DNA of 64,000 bases from Actinomycetota bacterium (lineage in GTDB: Bacteria; Actinomycetota; Thermoleophilia; Gaiellales; Gaiellaceae): positions 1-64,000 of the forward strand of contig VAWI01000002.1 in the NCBI GenBank assembly GCA_005884005.1, in the 5' to 3' direction. Both the position numbers and the translations under genes were made by a program. The notes beneath the pieces were generated by a model. The model saw nothing but the letters and a program-made list of their open reading frames with translations, was not told the DNA's origin and ran no database searches. Below are positions 8,360-45,326 of this stretch, one piece after another. How positions within the stretch are numbered: position 1 is the stretch's first letter; each line of letters starts with the position of its first letter.

Positions 8360-8752
8360 ATGAGCGGTTACACCGTCCAGAACCTGAAGAACGTCGAGGA
8401 CCAGGCGCCCAAGTTCGGGCTTTCGCCCCAGCTCGAGGCGCGGATGGCACGTGTGCCGCTCGAGCTCGAGCAGTTCGGGATCAGCTACCAGCGAATCGCC
8501 CCCGGCTTCCGCGTCCCCTGGGGACACACGCACAACGTGCAGGAGGAGGTCTACGTCGTCGTCTCGGGGAGCATGCTGGCAAAGCTCAATGAGGATGTCG
8601 TCGAGCTGAAACAGTGGGACGCCGTTCGCGTCCCGAAGGAGACGATGCGATCGTTCGAAGGCGGTCCCGAGGGGGCCGAGGTGATCGCGGTCGGTGCGCC
8701 CAACACCGGTCCCGGCGATGCCGTCGTCGAGCAGGGGTGGTGGAGCGACTGA
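8360..8752 (+). CDS. cupin-domain protein
   Basis: This 130-residue protein is a single small beta-barrel cupin. It has the first cupin motif (GHTHNVQEEVYVVVSGSM, His/His/Glu metal-binding pattern at residues about 55-72) and the second, more degenerate motif (WDAVRVPKETMRSFEGG). Such proteins bind a metal or small ligand; no specific substrate can be named. A strong GAGGAGG sits eight bases before the ATG. It is divergent from leuS and followed by the structured repeat element, with fbiC converging from the other side. Confidence 0.8.
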   Translation: MSGYTVQNLKNVEDQAPKFGLSPQLEARMARVPLELEQFGISYQRIAPGFRVPWGHTHNVQEEVYVVVSGSMLAKLNEDVVELKQWDAVRVPKETMRSFEGGPEGAEVIAVGAPNTGPGDAVVEQGWWSD

Positions 8753-8755
8753 GCC

Positions 8756-8918
8756 GGAGGGCTTGGCGGAACGCCGCTCGTCGTCGGGGTGCGATGCTCG
8801 TTCCCCAGGCAAGGACGCAGGGAGCGTCAATAGCCAAAGCTATTGGCGCGACTGAGGACGCCGCCTGGGGGCGAGCAGCGCGGCCCGCCGGCACAGACTG
8901 TGTTTCGCCAAGCCCTCC
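8756..8918. repeat. structured intergenic repeat element, copy A
   Basis: The element fills nearly the whole gap between the convergent cupin gene and fbiC. Its ends are a perfect 13-bp inverted repeat (GGAGGGCTTGGCG at 8756-8768, complement at 8906-8918). The core (about 8808-8906) is almost identical to copy B at 44214-44320 except for one internal hairpin. Here that hairpin is an 11-bp stem with a CAAA loop (8824-8849); in copy B the sequence differs but pairing is kept. A second hairpin (around CCGCCTGGGGGCG) and a CACAGACTGTG motif are shared. Strand and function are unknown. Confidence 0.75.
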
Positions 8919-8923
8919 TTACG

Positions 8924-11464
8924 CTAGCCCGCCGCGCCGACTAGGCCCGGCCGGACCAGGCGCGTCGGGCGCTCGAGCTTCGCGTCGTTGACGCTCGGAT
9001 TGAGCGGCTCGGCGAGCGGCGACGCGCCGAAGGAGGCCTTGTGCCGCTCGGCCGGTGGCTTACCGTAGAGCGTCGTCCGCTGGCGAGGCCTACGGCCGGC
9101 GGCGCGGATCGTCCCTTCCATTGCCTCGGGCGGCAGCTCCTGGCCGTGTCTCGCGCCGGCGGCGCGGGAGATCGACTCGTTCATCAGTGTGCCGCCGAGA
9201 TCGTTGGCGCCGGCACTCAGAGCCGCCTGCGCGCCGGCGACGCCGAGCTTCACCCACGAGGCCTGCACATTCGTGATCCACGGGTGGAGGGCGAGCCGTC
9301 CGACCGCGTGCATCAGCACGGACTCGCGGAAGGTCGGCCCGCGGCGGGCTCGACCTTGCAGGTAGATCGGAGCCTCCATGTGCACGAACGGGAGCGGTAC
9401 GAACTCGGTGAACCCGCCCGACCGGCGCTGCTGGTCGCGCAGGCGGACCAGGTGACGAGCCCAGTTTCGCGGGCCGTCGACGTGCCCGAACATGATCGTC
9501 GTCGTCGAGTGGAGGCCGATCTCGTGGGCGGTCTCGTGCACCTCCAGCCACTGCCGTGTCGTCACCTTGTCGGGGCAGATCAGGGCGCGGATCTCGTCGT
9601 CGAGGATCTCCGCGGCGGTGCCCGGCAGAGATGCGAGACCGGCCGCCTCGAGCCGTTCGAGATAGTCGCGCAACGGCAAGCCGAGTGTGGCGGCGCCTTG
9701 CCAGACCTCGAGGGCCGAGAACGCGTGGATGTGCAGGTCGGGCAGCTCCGCCTTGATCGCCCGGCAGACGTCGACGTAGAAGTCGCCTGTGAACCCGGGA
9801 TGGATGCCGCCCTGTAGGCAGACCTCGGTGCCGCCGCGCTCCCAGGCTTCGTCGCAGCGCCGGAGGATCTCGTCGAGGGGGACGAGGTAGGGCGCCCCCC
9901 GGAGGTTCGCCGCCAGCTTGCCCTTGGAGAACGCACAAAAGCCGCAGCGGAAGTAGCAGACGTTGGTGTAGTTGATGTTGCGCGTGACGACGTAGGTGAC
10001 CTCGTCGCCACAGACCTCTCGGCGGAGCGCATCGGCGGCTGCGACGACCGCGGCGAAGTCGTGGCCGCGGGCCCGGAAGAGCTCGGTGACGTCGTCCTCA
10101 CCGAGCTCGACGTCGTCCCGCACCTTCGCCAGCGCCTCGGCGATCGGCGCGGAGACCGACGGCCTTCGCACGCGAGAGGGCCGTTGCGAGTCGGTTCTCG
10201 ATCGTGACAGTTCCGGCACAGACCCGTTTCCCACCTGCGCGCGCTTGCTCGATAGGCTCGCCGCGGGGAGGAGGCTGGGTGCGCCGTTAAAAAGCGCCGC
10301 AGCCCGGGGCGGCGGCTGCTCGGGCGCGCCGGCTGCCCACTCGTCTTCGCGGGCAAAGCCTTCGCTGTCCGCCAGGGCGAGGACGCGCGGCCCGACGGCA
10401 GGGTCGACCCACCGCTCGAGCTCGGCCACGTATTCGGGGTAGATCGCGAGGCGCGGCACGAGTTCCAGTTCTCGGGAGCGAGTGGCTTCGCCGAGCAGCT
10501 CGAGCTCGGGCCAGGGGGCTTCTGGATTGACGTGGTCGACCGTGACCGGGGAGACGCCGCCCCAGTCGTTGATGCCCGCGTCGAGCAGCCGAGGGAACTC
10601 CGCGTAGCTCAGGTTCGGCGGCGCCTGGATGTTCGAGCCCGGGCCGAGCACGAGCCGCGCGGCCGCGCTCGTCCACAGCAGCTCCTCGAGCGGGGGCTCC
10701 GGCGAAGCGGCCATGCGTGTTCCAGGCTTGGCGCGGAAGTTCTGGACGATCACCTCCTGGACGTGGCCGAAGCGCTCCTCGAGCCCGCGGATCGCCAGCA
10801 GAGCCTCCAGCCGCTCGCGCCGGGTCTCGCCGATCCCGATCAGGATCCCCGTCGTGAACGGGACTCGGGCCTCGCCTGCCGCCTCGATCGTCGCCAACCT
10901 CTCAGCCGGAAGCTTGTCCGGCGACGCCCAGTGGGGGCCGCCGCGCTCGCCCAGCCGGGCGGCCGTCGCCTCCAGCATCAGCCCCTGCGAGGCCGAGACC
11001 GCGCGCAAGGCGAGGGTGTCGTCGAACGACAAGACGCCCGGATTCAGGTGCGGCAGAAGGCCGGTCTCGTCGAGCACGAGACGCGCGCAACGCGCCAGGT
11101 ACTCGAGCGTCGTCGAGCAGCCGAGCCCGGCGAGCTCGTCGCGGGCGACGCGGTAGCGAAGCTCGGGCTTGTCGCCAAGGGTGAAGAGCGCCTCGCGGCA
11201 CCCGGCCGCCTCCCCCGCCCTCGCGATCTCGAGCACCTCGTCCTCGTTCATGTACGCCCGCTGCCCGCGCCGCGGCGGCCGCGCAAAGGTGCAATAGCCG
11301 CAGACATCGCGGCAGAGCTTGGTCAGCGGAATGAAGACCTTGGGCGAATAGGTGACGCGGTTTCCGTGGCCGAGCGCGCGAAGCCGGCGCGCTTCGCCCG
11401 CCAACGATCCCCACGCCTCGTCGACGAGCTCGAAGGCCTCGACCGAGGCGAGTCCCTCACCCAC
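8924..11464 (-). CDS. fbiC: FO synthase, fused CofG/CofH radical-SAM protein
   Basis: The 846-residue protein joins two radical-SAM domains that together make the deazaflavin FO, the chromophore of coenzyme F420. The N-terminal CofG-like half has the cluster motif CRDVCGYCTF (residues about 51-60); the C-terminal CofH-like half has CYFRCGFCAFSKG (about 494-506). A low-complexity linker lies at residues about 375-430. Length and domain order match FbiC of actinobacteria. The GTG start at 11464 is the first in frame. The 3' end abuts the structured repeat. Nearby PPOX-family genes are consistent with F420 use. Confidence 0.95.
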   Translation of the reverse strand: MGEGLASVEAFELVDEAWGSLAGEARRLRALGHGNRVTYSPKVFIPLTKLCRDVCGYCTFARPPRRGQRAYMNEDEVLEIARAGEAAGCREALFTLGDKPELRYRVARDELAGLGCSTTLEYLARCARLVLDETGLLPHLNPGVLSFDDTLALRAVSASQGLMLEATAARLGERGGPHWASPDKLPAERLATIEAAGEARVPFTTGILIGIGETRRERLEALLAIRGLEERFGHVQEVIVQNFRAKPGTRMAASPEPPLEELLWTSAAARLVLGPGSNIQAPPNLSYAEFPRLLDAGINDWGGVSPVTVDHVNPEAPWPELELLGEATRSRELELVPRLAIYPEYVAELERWVDPAVGPRVLALADSEGFAREDEWAAGAPEQPPPRAAALFNGAPSLLPAASLSSKRAQVGNGSVPELSRSRTDSQRPSRVRRPSVSAPIAEALAKVRDDVELGEDDVTELFRARGHDFAAVVAAADALRREVCGDEVTYVVTRNINYTNVCYFRCGFCAFSKGKLAANLRGAPYLVPLDEILRRCDEAWERGGTEVCLQGGIHPGFTGDFYVDVCRAIKAELPDLHIHAFSALEVWQGAATLGLPLRDYLERLEAAGLASLPGTAAEILDDEIRALICPDKVTTRQWLEVHETAHEIGLHSTTTIMFGHVDGPRNWARHLVRLRDQQRRSGGFTEFVPLPFVHMEAPIYLQGRARRGPTFRESVLMHAVGRLALHPWITNVQASWVKLGVAGAQAALSAGANDLGGTLMNESISRAAGARHGQELPPEAMEGTIRAAGRRPRQRTTLYGKPPAERHKASFGASPLAEPLNPSVNDAKLERPTRLVRPGLVGAAG

Positions 11465-42927: not shown

Positions 42928-43536
42928 TTGGTTGACGATCCGCCCGCTCAGAGCCGCGTGCTCCTCGCCGGAGATGAATCGCCGCTGCGCGCCTGGGTCA
43001 GGCTCTCGCTCGCCGGGACAGAGCTTCGCGTCGCCGGTGAAACCGAAGGGGCCGAAGACACGGCACGGCTCGCCGCCGAGCTCGAACCTCACGTGGTGCT
43101 GGTCGAGGCGACCGGCACGGAGCTCGTAAGCGAGCTCCGTGAAGCGGGAATCTCGGTACCGGTGGTCTTGCTCTCCCCCACCCCGAAGCGCGGTTTCAAC
43201 GAGAACGCTCGTGAGGCCGGCGCGCAAGGAACCGTTCTGGCAACCGGCAGCATCGGCAGGCTCGTGGCGGCGCTACGAGCAGTGTTGCGAGGCGAGCCTT
43301 CCTTCGACGCCGCTCACCCCGGGCGGCCGGCCGGCCAAAGCGCGCTGAGCCCGCGCGAGCGAGACGTCCTGAGGCTGGTCGGCCGGGGCGCGACGAATCG
43401 CGAGATCGCGAATGAGCTGGAGATCGGCGACCAGACGGTCAAAACCCTGCTTGCCCGCAGCTGCGCGAAGCTCGGAGTCAGCCGCCGGGCAGACGCCGTC
43501 GCAGCAGCGCGCGGGCTGGGGCTGCTGGTCTTGTGA
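42928..43536 (+). CDS. LuxR/NarL-type response regulator with defective receiver
   Basis: The protein has a receiver-like domain and a C-terminal LuxR helix-turn-helix (LSPRERDVLRLVGRGATNREIANELEIGDQTVKTLLARSCAKLG). In the receiver the phospho-acceptor position reads HVVLVEATGTE, with glutamate in place of aspartate, and the conserved lysine is also missing (GTVLATGS). It should not be phosphorylated in the normal way. The start is uncertain: TTG 42928 lies downstream of the likely promoter; GTG 42958 is an alternative. Its stop overlaps the kinase-like gene (GTGA). Confidence 0.75.
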   Translation: MVDDPPAQSRVLLAGDESPLRAWVRLSLAGTELRVAGETEGAEDTARLAAELEPHVVLVEATGTELVSELREAGISVPVVLLSPTPKRGFNENAREAGAQGTVLATGSIGRLVAALRAVLRGEPSFDAAHPGRPAGQSALSPRERDVLRLVGRGATNREIANELEIGDQTVKTLLARSCAKLGVSRRADAVAAARGLGLLVL

Positions 43537-44213
43537 CTGAGCTCGACCCGCCGGCCGCCCAGGCGCTGTCCAGGCTCTCGAACGGCCTTCGCAGCCCGCT
43601 CGCGCTGATCGCCGGCTACGCCGACTTACTCGAGCTCAAGCCCGACGCCGAGACGCTCTCGGAGGCGCCGCAACGGATCAAGGAGGCGGCGAGCGAGCTC
43701 ACGCGGATCGTCGACGACCTGCTCACCGTGTATGCAATCGACGCGAATGTTCTCTACCTGGCCCCGGTGCCGATGCGGGCCGGTGCCCTCCTTGATGATG
43801 CAATAGCCCAGGTGCGAGACCACGGGACGGTCGTCTCGCTCGAGGCCGACGACCGAAGCCGCGAGGCAGAGCTCCTCGTCGATCCCGAGTACGCCCGTTC
43901 GATGATCGCGACCCTGCTGGAGAACGCGCGCTACCGGGCCGCCAACGCAGGCGCGACGGTGCGCATCCGTCTCATCAGCGGGTTCGTCGAGTTCGAAGTC
44001 GGCGATCCCGGCGGAAGTGTCGACCCCGAGGAGCGCGCGCTGGCGTTCGAGCGGTTCTCACGCCTCCAGCCTCGGACCGGATTGACGACGGGGCTCGAGC
44101 TCTACAAGGTGCGGCGACTCGCGGAGCTCCAGCACGGGCGGGTCTGGGTCGGCGACGGGCCCGGCGAGGAGGCGGTGTTCGGATTTGCTCTGCCGCTCGC
44201 TCGACCGGATTAG
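43533..44213 (+). CDS. histidine-kinase-like protein lacking the phospho-histidine
   Basis: The 226-residue soluble protein has a dimerisation helix LSNGLRSPLALIAGYADLLEL, in which the usual H-E-L-R-(T/S)-P-L reads N-G-L-R-S-P-L, so the histidine is replaced. An ATPase domain follows with an N-box (IATLLENARYRA), a G1-like DPGGS and a weak G2 (TGLTTGLELYKVRRL). There is no sensor or membrane segment. It overlaps the defective response regulator, so the pair is probably a phosphotransfer-independent regulatory unit. The gene ends directly at structured repeat copy B. Confidence 0.75.
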   Translation: MTELDPPAAQALSRLSNGLRSPLALIAGYADLLELKPDAETLSEAPQRIKEAASELTRIVDDLLTVYAIDANVLYLAPVPMRAGALLDDAIAQVRDHGTVVSLEADDRSREAELLVDPEYARSMIATLLENARYRAANAGATVRIRLISGFVEFEVGDPGGSVDPEERALAFERFSRLQPRTGLTTGLELYKVRRLAELQHGRVWVGDGPGEEAVFGFALPLARPD

Positions 44214-44320
44214 GCAAGGACGCAGGGAGCGCGCGTACCCATAGGTACAGTGCGCGACTGAGGACGCCGCCTGGCGGCGAGCAGCGCGGCCCCGGCGGCA
44301 CAGACTGTGTTTCGTCGAAC
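44214..44320. repeat. structured intergenic repeat element, copy B
   Basis: This copy matches the core of copy A (8808-8918) almost base for base, in the same orientation, between another pair of convergent genes. The variable hairpin (44229-44255) is an 11-bp stem with a CATA loop and one bulged A; its upper stem sequence differs from copy A yet stays paired. The CCGCCTGGCGGCG hairpin and CACAGACTGTG motif are kept. The 13-bp inverted end found in copy A is missing on the left side, where the kinase-like gene ends. Confidence 0.75.
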
Positions 44321-44324
44321 CCTC

Positions 44325-45326
44325 CTAATGCTGCCGGCAGAGCCGGTCGCCGTACGAGTCGAGAATCGCGTTCTGCGCCTGCTCGTAGGCGACGTCGGCC
44401 GGGCTCTTCGGACTGTACCGGTGTAGGCCCAGGCCCTCCCAGCTGATGTCCGGGGTGACTCCGGGACCCCCCACGGTCACCCGGTACCGCTTGCCGACTC
44501 CAGGGCCGCGGCGGTGGTGGCGCGGCCAGTTCGGCGGCGCGCCATACCCGCCGCTGGTCGGGTCATGTCGGAAGAAGCCGTAGCAGAAGACACCGGTGCC
44601 CTTGTGAGTCACGAACGAGTTCTCGCGCCGCCAGCCGTGTCCGTAGGCGGGCGCGTCCAACGTGTCCAAGTAGAGCAGGCGGCCGAACCGGTCGGTCGGC
44701 GCCCCCAGCCGCGTCGTTCGATAGCCATACACCGGACGGCCGCGGTAGGTAAGCCGTCCGAAGACATGCTGAAAGCGGCCGCCGTAGACCCAGTCGGTGT
44801 GCACCTCGAGCTCCGCGATCTCGCCACTCCAGTGCGAGAGGGTCAGCCAAGGAACCTTCTGGTTCCGCAGCCAGGGGAGGAAGCCGAGATCGGGCAGCCC
44901 GACCCGCCAGCTCTGGAGGGCCCAGTAGGATCCGTCGCCCGCCGTGCAGCTGGCAACGACGTGCGTGAGCACGGGGCCGTCGTAACGGTGGCACGTGTCA
45001 GCGAACGTTTGCCAGACGCGACGGTGGTAGGTGCCCCAGCCGCCTGAATAGTCGAGCCGAAACGAGACCTGCGTTCCTCCGCTCGCAGACGGGCGCGCGT
45101 TGATCGCGCCCCAGCCGAGCACTCGCCTGAGTCTCCCGCTCGCCCGATAGGTGATCAACGCTTCCCCCTTGGCGTTCACCTGGAGGTGAACGTCGGTTGC
45201 GTTCCGGTCGACGAGTTGAGAGGCCCGCGCCGGCGCCGCGATTCCAAGTATTGCGAGGAAGGAGACGGACAGGGCCAGCACGGCGAGGGGGATGTTCTTG
45301 GAGGGAACCGAGCGGGCCCTGTCCAT
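44325..45326 (-). CDS. secreted protein of unknown function
   Basis: The 333-residue protein has a signal peptide (IPLAVLALSVSFLAILGIAAPARAS) and a single large external domain rich in Trp, Tyr and Gly with four conserved-looking cysteines (FADTCHRYDG, VVASCTAGDG, GVFCYGFFR, DRLCRQH). GAGGAGAC precedes the ATG. I do not recognise the family. It shares its 3' gap with structured repeat copy B. Confidence 0.65.
   Translation of the reverse strand: MDRARSVPSKNIPLAVLALSVSFLAILGIAAPARASQLVDRNATDVHLQVNAKGEALITYRASGRLRRVLGWGAINARPSASGGTQVSFRLDYSGGWGTYHRRVWQTFADTCHRYDGPVLTHVVASCTAGDGSYWALQSWRVGLPDLGFLPWLRNQKVPWLTLSHWSGEIAELEVHTDWVYGGRFQHVFGRLTYRGRPVYGYRTTRLGAPTDRFGRLLYLDTLDAPAYGHGWRRENSFVTHKGTGVFCYGFFRHDPTSGGYGAPPNWPRHHRRGPGVGKRYRVTVGGPGVTPDISWEGLGLHRYSPKSPADVAYEQAQNAILDSYGDRLCRQH

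Follow-up and report, generated by a model that had tools for sequence, protein, structure and literature searches.

A conserved structured core behind interchangeable ends in a likely superfamily of palindromic mobile elements from Thermoleophilia

The repeat that occurs twice in the 64,000-nucleotide window (the whole stretch of DNA analysed here) is almost certainly a non-autonomous, palindromic, MITE-like mobile element. It is short (162-166 bp), non-coding, bounded by terminal inverted repeats (TIRs) and polymorphic in its insertion, which are among the traits by which MITEs are recognised. What is new is that an invariant structured core lies behind interchangeable ends and that one of the two strands is under selection. 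In the explanation that we consider likely, copies of this kind form a superfamily of ~162 bp non-autonomous palindromic mobile elements, in which selection acts on the hairpin of one strand and the core would serve as a handle.

Two copies in the window and the family around them

Copy A is a full-length type-1 element of 163 bp (8756-8918, + strand) with ends GGAGGGCTTGGCG...CGCCAAGCCCTCC, as defined from its sequence, its fold, other copies in the genome and empty orthologous sites. It forms a near-perfect hairpin from end to end, with a minimum free energy of -119.2 kcal/mol on the + strand (z -9.4; 0/200 shuffles as good) and -101.8 kcal/mol on the - strand. The 5′ outer and middle arm, beginning with the terminal inverted repeat, spans 8756-8805 (+), and the 3′ middle and outer arm spans 8862-8918 (+); between them lie the core 5′ strand AAGGACGCAGGGAG (8811-8824, +; placed by alignment and model), which is the invariant side of the internal loop, the variable apical stem-loop (8824-8849, +; placed by covariation) and the core 3′ strand GACTGAGGACGC (8850-8861, +; placed by alignment). 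Copy B (44213-44325, +), defined from its sequence and from relatives with the same site, is copy A's type-1 element without the 5′ arm.

Outside one variable window the two copies differ at few bases, as originally predicted, and this variable window proves to be the apical stem of the hairpin. The predicted 11-bp stem with a 4-nt loop is present in both: GCGTCAATAGC-CAAA-GCTATTGGCGC in copy A, with one G.U pair, and GCGCGCGTACC-CATA-GGTAC(A)GTGCGC in copy B (44230-44256, +), where a bulged A had been overlooked. Both copies also lie, as noticed before, in the same orientation between convergent genes. Copy A is flanked by a gene with weak cupin similarity, below the Pfam cut-off (8360-8752, +), and by an FbiC-like gene of F420 biosynthesis, assigned by sequence reading (8924-11464, -). 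A histidine kinase gene (43533-44213, +) and a gene without a Pfam match (44325-45326, -) flank copy B, which starts directly after the TA of the kinase's stop codon, so that the TAG overlaps its first base; at the other end its last C, together with TA, rebuilds the stop codon, TAG, of the gene on the minus strand. The convergent setting is not a property of the family, in which 22/100 intergenic elements lie between convergent genes, compared with 17.5% of background gene pairs.

The view that the family comprised two copies, in which both the full hairpin of copy A and the lost 5′ arm of copy B had gone unnoticed, did not survive a wider search. A DNA search together with R1, a covariance model built on the core, found 32 copies in this genome, which fall into at least four sets by their outer arms (GGAGGGYTTGGCG; AGAGCCCCTTTCA; AGTGCTCCTTCCGG; and one with an internal GCGAAAAGC/GCTTTGCAGC module). 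The core pattern is present in at least 118 stretches of public genomes, and all the records listed are Actinomycetota, many of them labelled as Thermoleophilia MAGs. By model search, copies are carried by 31/41 relatives (1-46 per genome), by 91/199 sampled genomes of this scarcely studied class of soil bacteria (for the most part MAGs from soil and sediment) and by 26/296 genomes of the phylum; in a single genome, on a 4.6-Mb contig, their number reaches at least 150. Length is tightly kept, at 162-165 bp in 125/142 elements with defined ends and exactly 162 in 55. The family is thus conserved in relatives, with many copies that pair in the variable window, rather than a set of copies with unpaired windows or an isolated, unconserved pair.

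A constant core, a covarying tip and a favoured strand

The core, AAGGACGCAGGGAG-stem-GACTGAGGACGC, is structured and common to ~34 element groups whose outer arms differ. Across 98 aligned cores, 93.5% of cells are paired, and a covariation count gave 319 two-sided changes, far above the shuffled mean of 103 (0/500 as high); the signal was lost when the partner was slid by 1-3 columns. Because the pattern search behind this set had fixed some core letters, the count was repeated on a set of 106 copies that the model had detected, which gave 269 two-sided changes against 69 in shuffles, in an alignment fitted to the covariance model. The core itself hardly varies and is therefore uninformative on pairing there, although its letters would allow tandem G.A pairs. 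At the tip, special RNA tetraloops (GNRA/UNCG) are not enriched, and AGC triloops are the most common. Selection maintains a hairpin on one strand, composed of an invariant internal-loop core and an apical stem that evolves freely yet remains paired. Two distant members (L226:5760 and L227:4868) have an extra stem segment and a AGGAGGAAAAAG/CTTTTTGCTCC core variant, and might represent a sister family.

The preference for one strand extends over the whole element. The + strand hairpin is the more stable in 194/196 whole elements (mean -102.2 vs -80.1), and mismatches in their outer arms are G.T (G.U) in 660 cases and A.C in 144. When elements were grouped by arm similarity, the stability bias appeared in 34/34 groups and the excess of G.T over A.C in 31/34, these groups being not fully independent even though their arm sequences differ widely. 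With the core cut out, the arms alone still favour the + strand in 193/196 elements and 33/34 groups, and DNA energy parameters favour it in 195/196 elements. Both the bias and the G.T preference are expected of a folded single strand and are unexplained by an element that exists only as double-stranded DNA; together with the covariation, they strongly support the earlier suggestion of selection on RNA or single-stranded DNA structure. Since the hairpin is selected on one strand, a single-stranded form (RNA or ssDNA) would matter to the element, and we consider it likely that a functional single-stranded stage exists.

An ordinary MITE with no single-strand role, in which the bias would come from a small number of left-right end differences that became fixed and were passed down within families, accounts well for the TIRs, the TA flanks and the ends that match insertion sequences, all of which are typical. 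It also suits the core-less, TA-flanked hairpins of ~50-65 bp with type-1 ends (L326-L331), which are probably internal deletions of the long element. Such inheritance is nevertheless hard to reconcile with a bias that recurs in 31/34 arm groups of unrelated sequence, or with a core that is conserved across all arm groups and shows compensatory change, and we regard this reading as improbable.

Insertion sites, gene context and candidate transposases

Comparison with empty orthologous sites places the insertion at CTAG/CTAR with a TA left on each side, an arrangement in which a target duplication is not separable from one element-borne TA. Site A is empty in two relatives (G002, GCGACTAGCGAC; G003, CTGAGCTAGCGCC) and filled in a third (G001, CTGAGCTA-GGAGGG...CCCTCT-TAGCC), where the core has an alternative 3′ arm (GCGATACCAGGGCGGAGCC); either this site took two insertions or the core was exchanged once the element was in place. 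Site B is empty in G002, and in the sister species G003 (L261:390-547) it holds a full-length element that points the other way and shares copy B's right junction. Public loci yielded further empty sites; in one such pair L120 is empty (CCACTAGTACG) and L108 filled (CACTA-GTGATCC...GGTCAC-TAGTACG). Among 142 elements delimited by an automatic end-finder, only 41 have TA on both sides, and a left-flank C is more frequent than a right-flank G, an excess that symmetric TA insertion does not predict.

Inward-pointing genes have their stop codon at the element junction in about two thirds of cases (left 35/49, right 52/79), according to a simple gene caller based on GC frame, which was checked against genes already known in the window. 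The element starts with G or A, so that a stop codon hit at its TA is restored as TAG or TAA. The structured RNA-like element first proposed is an incomplete picture: what recurs is a mobile palindrome that inserts at stop codons and has many end families.

This placement at gene ends, along with the strong covariation and the G.U preference on one strand, would also suit a multicopy transcribed regulatory RNA, such as a 3′-UTR element or sRNA, whose hairpin stabilises mRNA or marks a processing site; ERIC and bcr elements are indeed transcribed in UTRs (PMC2267715, PMC3446304). However, where the neighbouring genes run in one direction, the stable strand is antisense to them in 44 cases and sense in 20 (p ~0.004, kinship ignored), and the elements that we inspected between ribosomal-protein genes, where copies occur in several genomes, are all antisense to the operon. 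The antisense excess is best read as selection against a stable hairpin in mRNA. A U run follows only 1/142 elements, and insertion polymorphism at orthologous sites bespeaks mobility rather than a fixed gene, which makes a regulatory RNA unlikely. An intrinsic terminator was rejected, the U run being found after the hairpin in 1/142 on the + side and 0 on the - side. Sites in ribosomal-protein operons, with genes named by sequence reading, include L24/L14, L14/S17, S3/L22, L18/S5, L6/S8 and one near L2 (L106:536,1069,3670; L136:6420; L199:1535; L044:4206).

Candidate transposases come from the IS5 type. DUF4096 (IS5-type) transposases occur in 5/13 tested genomes, this one included, and Pfam identifies DDE_Tnp_1 and DUF4096 in L276. 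TA flanks the insertion sequences in G004, G023 and G015, whose ends are AGAACTCGAATC..., AGAGCTCGTTTCA... and AGAACTCGTTTCA... Type-2 element ends match IS5-type ends at up to 19-20/24 bases (random stretches, 14-17), which suggests that IS5-type (DUF4096/DDE_Tnp_1) transposases probably move the element in trans, for this one end type. For type-1 ends (GGAGGG, the commonest in this genome) no transposase was found in these MAGs, which are fragmented and as such often lose insertion sequences, and no autonomous element with type-1 ends was found in 8 genomes. One IS630 weakly resembles GTG-type ends; as a general mobiliser it was rejected, IS630-type genes being present in 2/13 genomes. Other end types may use other transposases. 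Within one genome, elements of type 1 and of type 2 carry the same alternative 3′ core arm, and in the form GCGATACCAGGGCGGAGCCGGTGG it recurs in both types within one genus (L010, L011, L013, L021, L022, L023 and L238), which points to an exchange of cores among end families; recombination or gene conversion may have swapped cores from one end type to another.

A further possibility is recombination of a folded single DNA strand in the manner of integron attC sites, in which an imperfect but conserved hairpin whose tip varies would be recognised as ssDNA and inserted in a single orientation. Integron attC sites are imperfect hairpins near gene ends, with variable tips and unpaired conserved bases. 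The element shares these hairpin traits: its terminal stem varies, it adjoins stop codons and its one-strand selection holds with DNA energies (195/196). The left-flank C preference points the same way, as do ten close element pairs in G385, 10/10 of which are in the same orientation. Several of these pairs are tandem or have one element inside another's core, entered at the same point, GGC(T/A)A^GGACG; loci L315-L322 of one genome are nested and tandem arrays, and L319 has four left arms and two cores. This nesting is at most suggestive, as the core variant GGCTAGGACG contains CTAG, so that an ordinary target suffices, and the composites may have multiplied from few events. No replichore orientation bias was seen in G385. 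The element differs from attC in being dispersed rather than arrayed behind an integrase, and both attC boxes (RYYYAAC and GTTRRRY) are present in 0/196 elements. Integron-like arrays, suspected from the clustered copies, were rejected on finding full TIR elements in place of attC boxes. As the ends match DDE-type insertion sequences, recombination of the attC kind appears distinctly unlikely; the element is not an attC, but the way in which its folded strand is read may be attC-like.

Returning to the mobile element with a selected hairpin, its CTAG/CTAR target, the TA on either side and the stop codons restored by G- or A-starting ends may be joined to a putative single-stranded working form. 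At one stage or another of the life cycle the + strand would fold as RNA or ssDNA, and the core may be a handle bound by a protein. More tentatively, and with considerable doubt, we propose that replication or transposition passes through this folded single strand, with the core as a putative protein recognition site and the ends as interchangeable adaptors to the host's TA-targeting transposases.

Relation to known repeats and significance

At curated thresholds, 0/4227 families of Rfam 15 match the elements, in keeping with the earlier failure to place them in a known class. Phage, plasmid and viral collections yielded nothing resembling them, and the literature search returned no paper on miniature inverted repeats in Thermoleophilia. 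The closest anatomical parallels are ERIC, Correia/NEMIS, RUP and YPAL, repeats of 100-200 bp with terminal inverted repeats, TA at their ends and many intergenic copies, which fold as a whole into one long stem-loop (PMC2229807, PMC2267715). The element resembles them in size, inverted repeats, TA ends, intergenic copies and stem-loop, but the invariant internal-loop core behind ~34 arm groups, the covarying tip, the exact stop-codon placement and perhaps the one-strand stability set it apart from these MITEs and stem-loop repeats. The repeats bcr1-bcr18 of Bacillus cereus are likewise dispersed and MITE-like, and some are transcribed with a conserved RNA structure (PMC3446304). They belong to another lineage, in which no common sequence would be expected, and a core shared across different ends is not described for them in the literature searched. 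IS5-type insertion sequences resemble type-2 elements in their ends and TA/CTAG flanks, whereas the element has no coding sequence and its palindromic core is not seen in the insertion sequences.

Bacterial MITEs are usually viewed as transposons in decay, maintained by their ends. In this family the conserved part lies inside the element rather than at its ends, and a single strand is under selection. Around half of the sampled genomes of the class carry this family, which is absent from the RNA libraries and literature searched, and it is therefore likely to be mistaken for a regulatory RNA again. Landing on stop codons and rebuilding them indicates how a parasite tolerates insertion in dense operons, even those of ribosomal proteins. 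The conserved inside and the selected strand make it possible to test whether repeats of this kind serve a function themselves.
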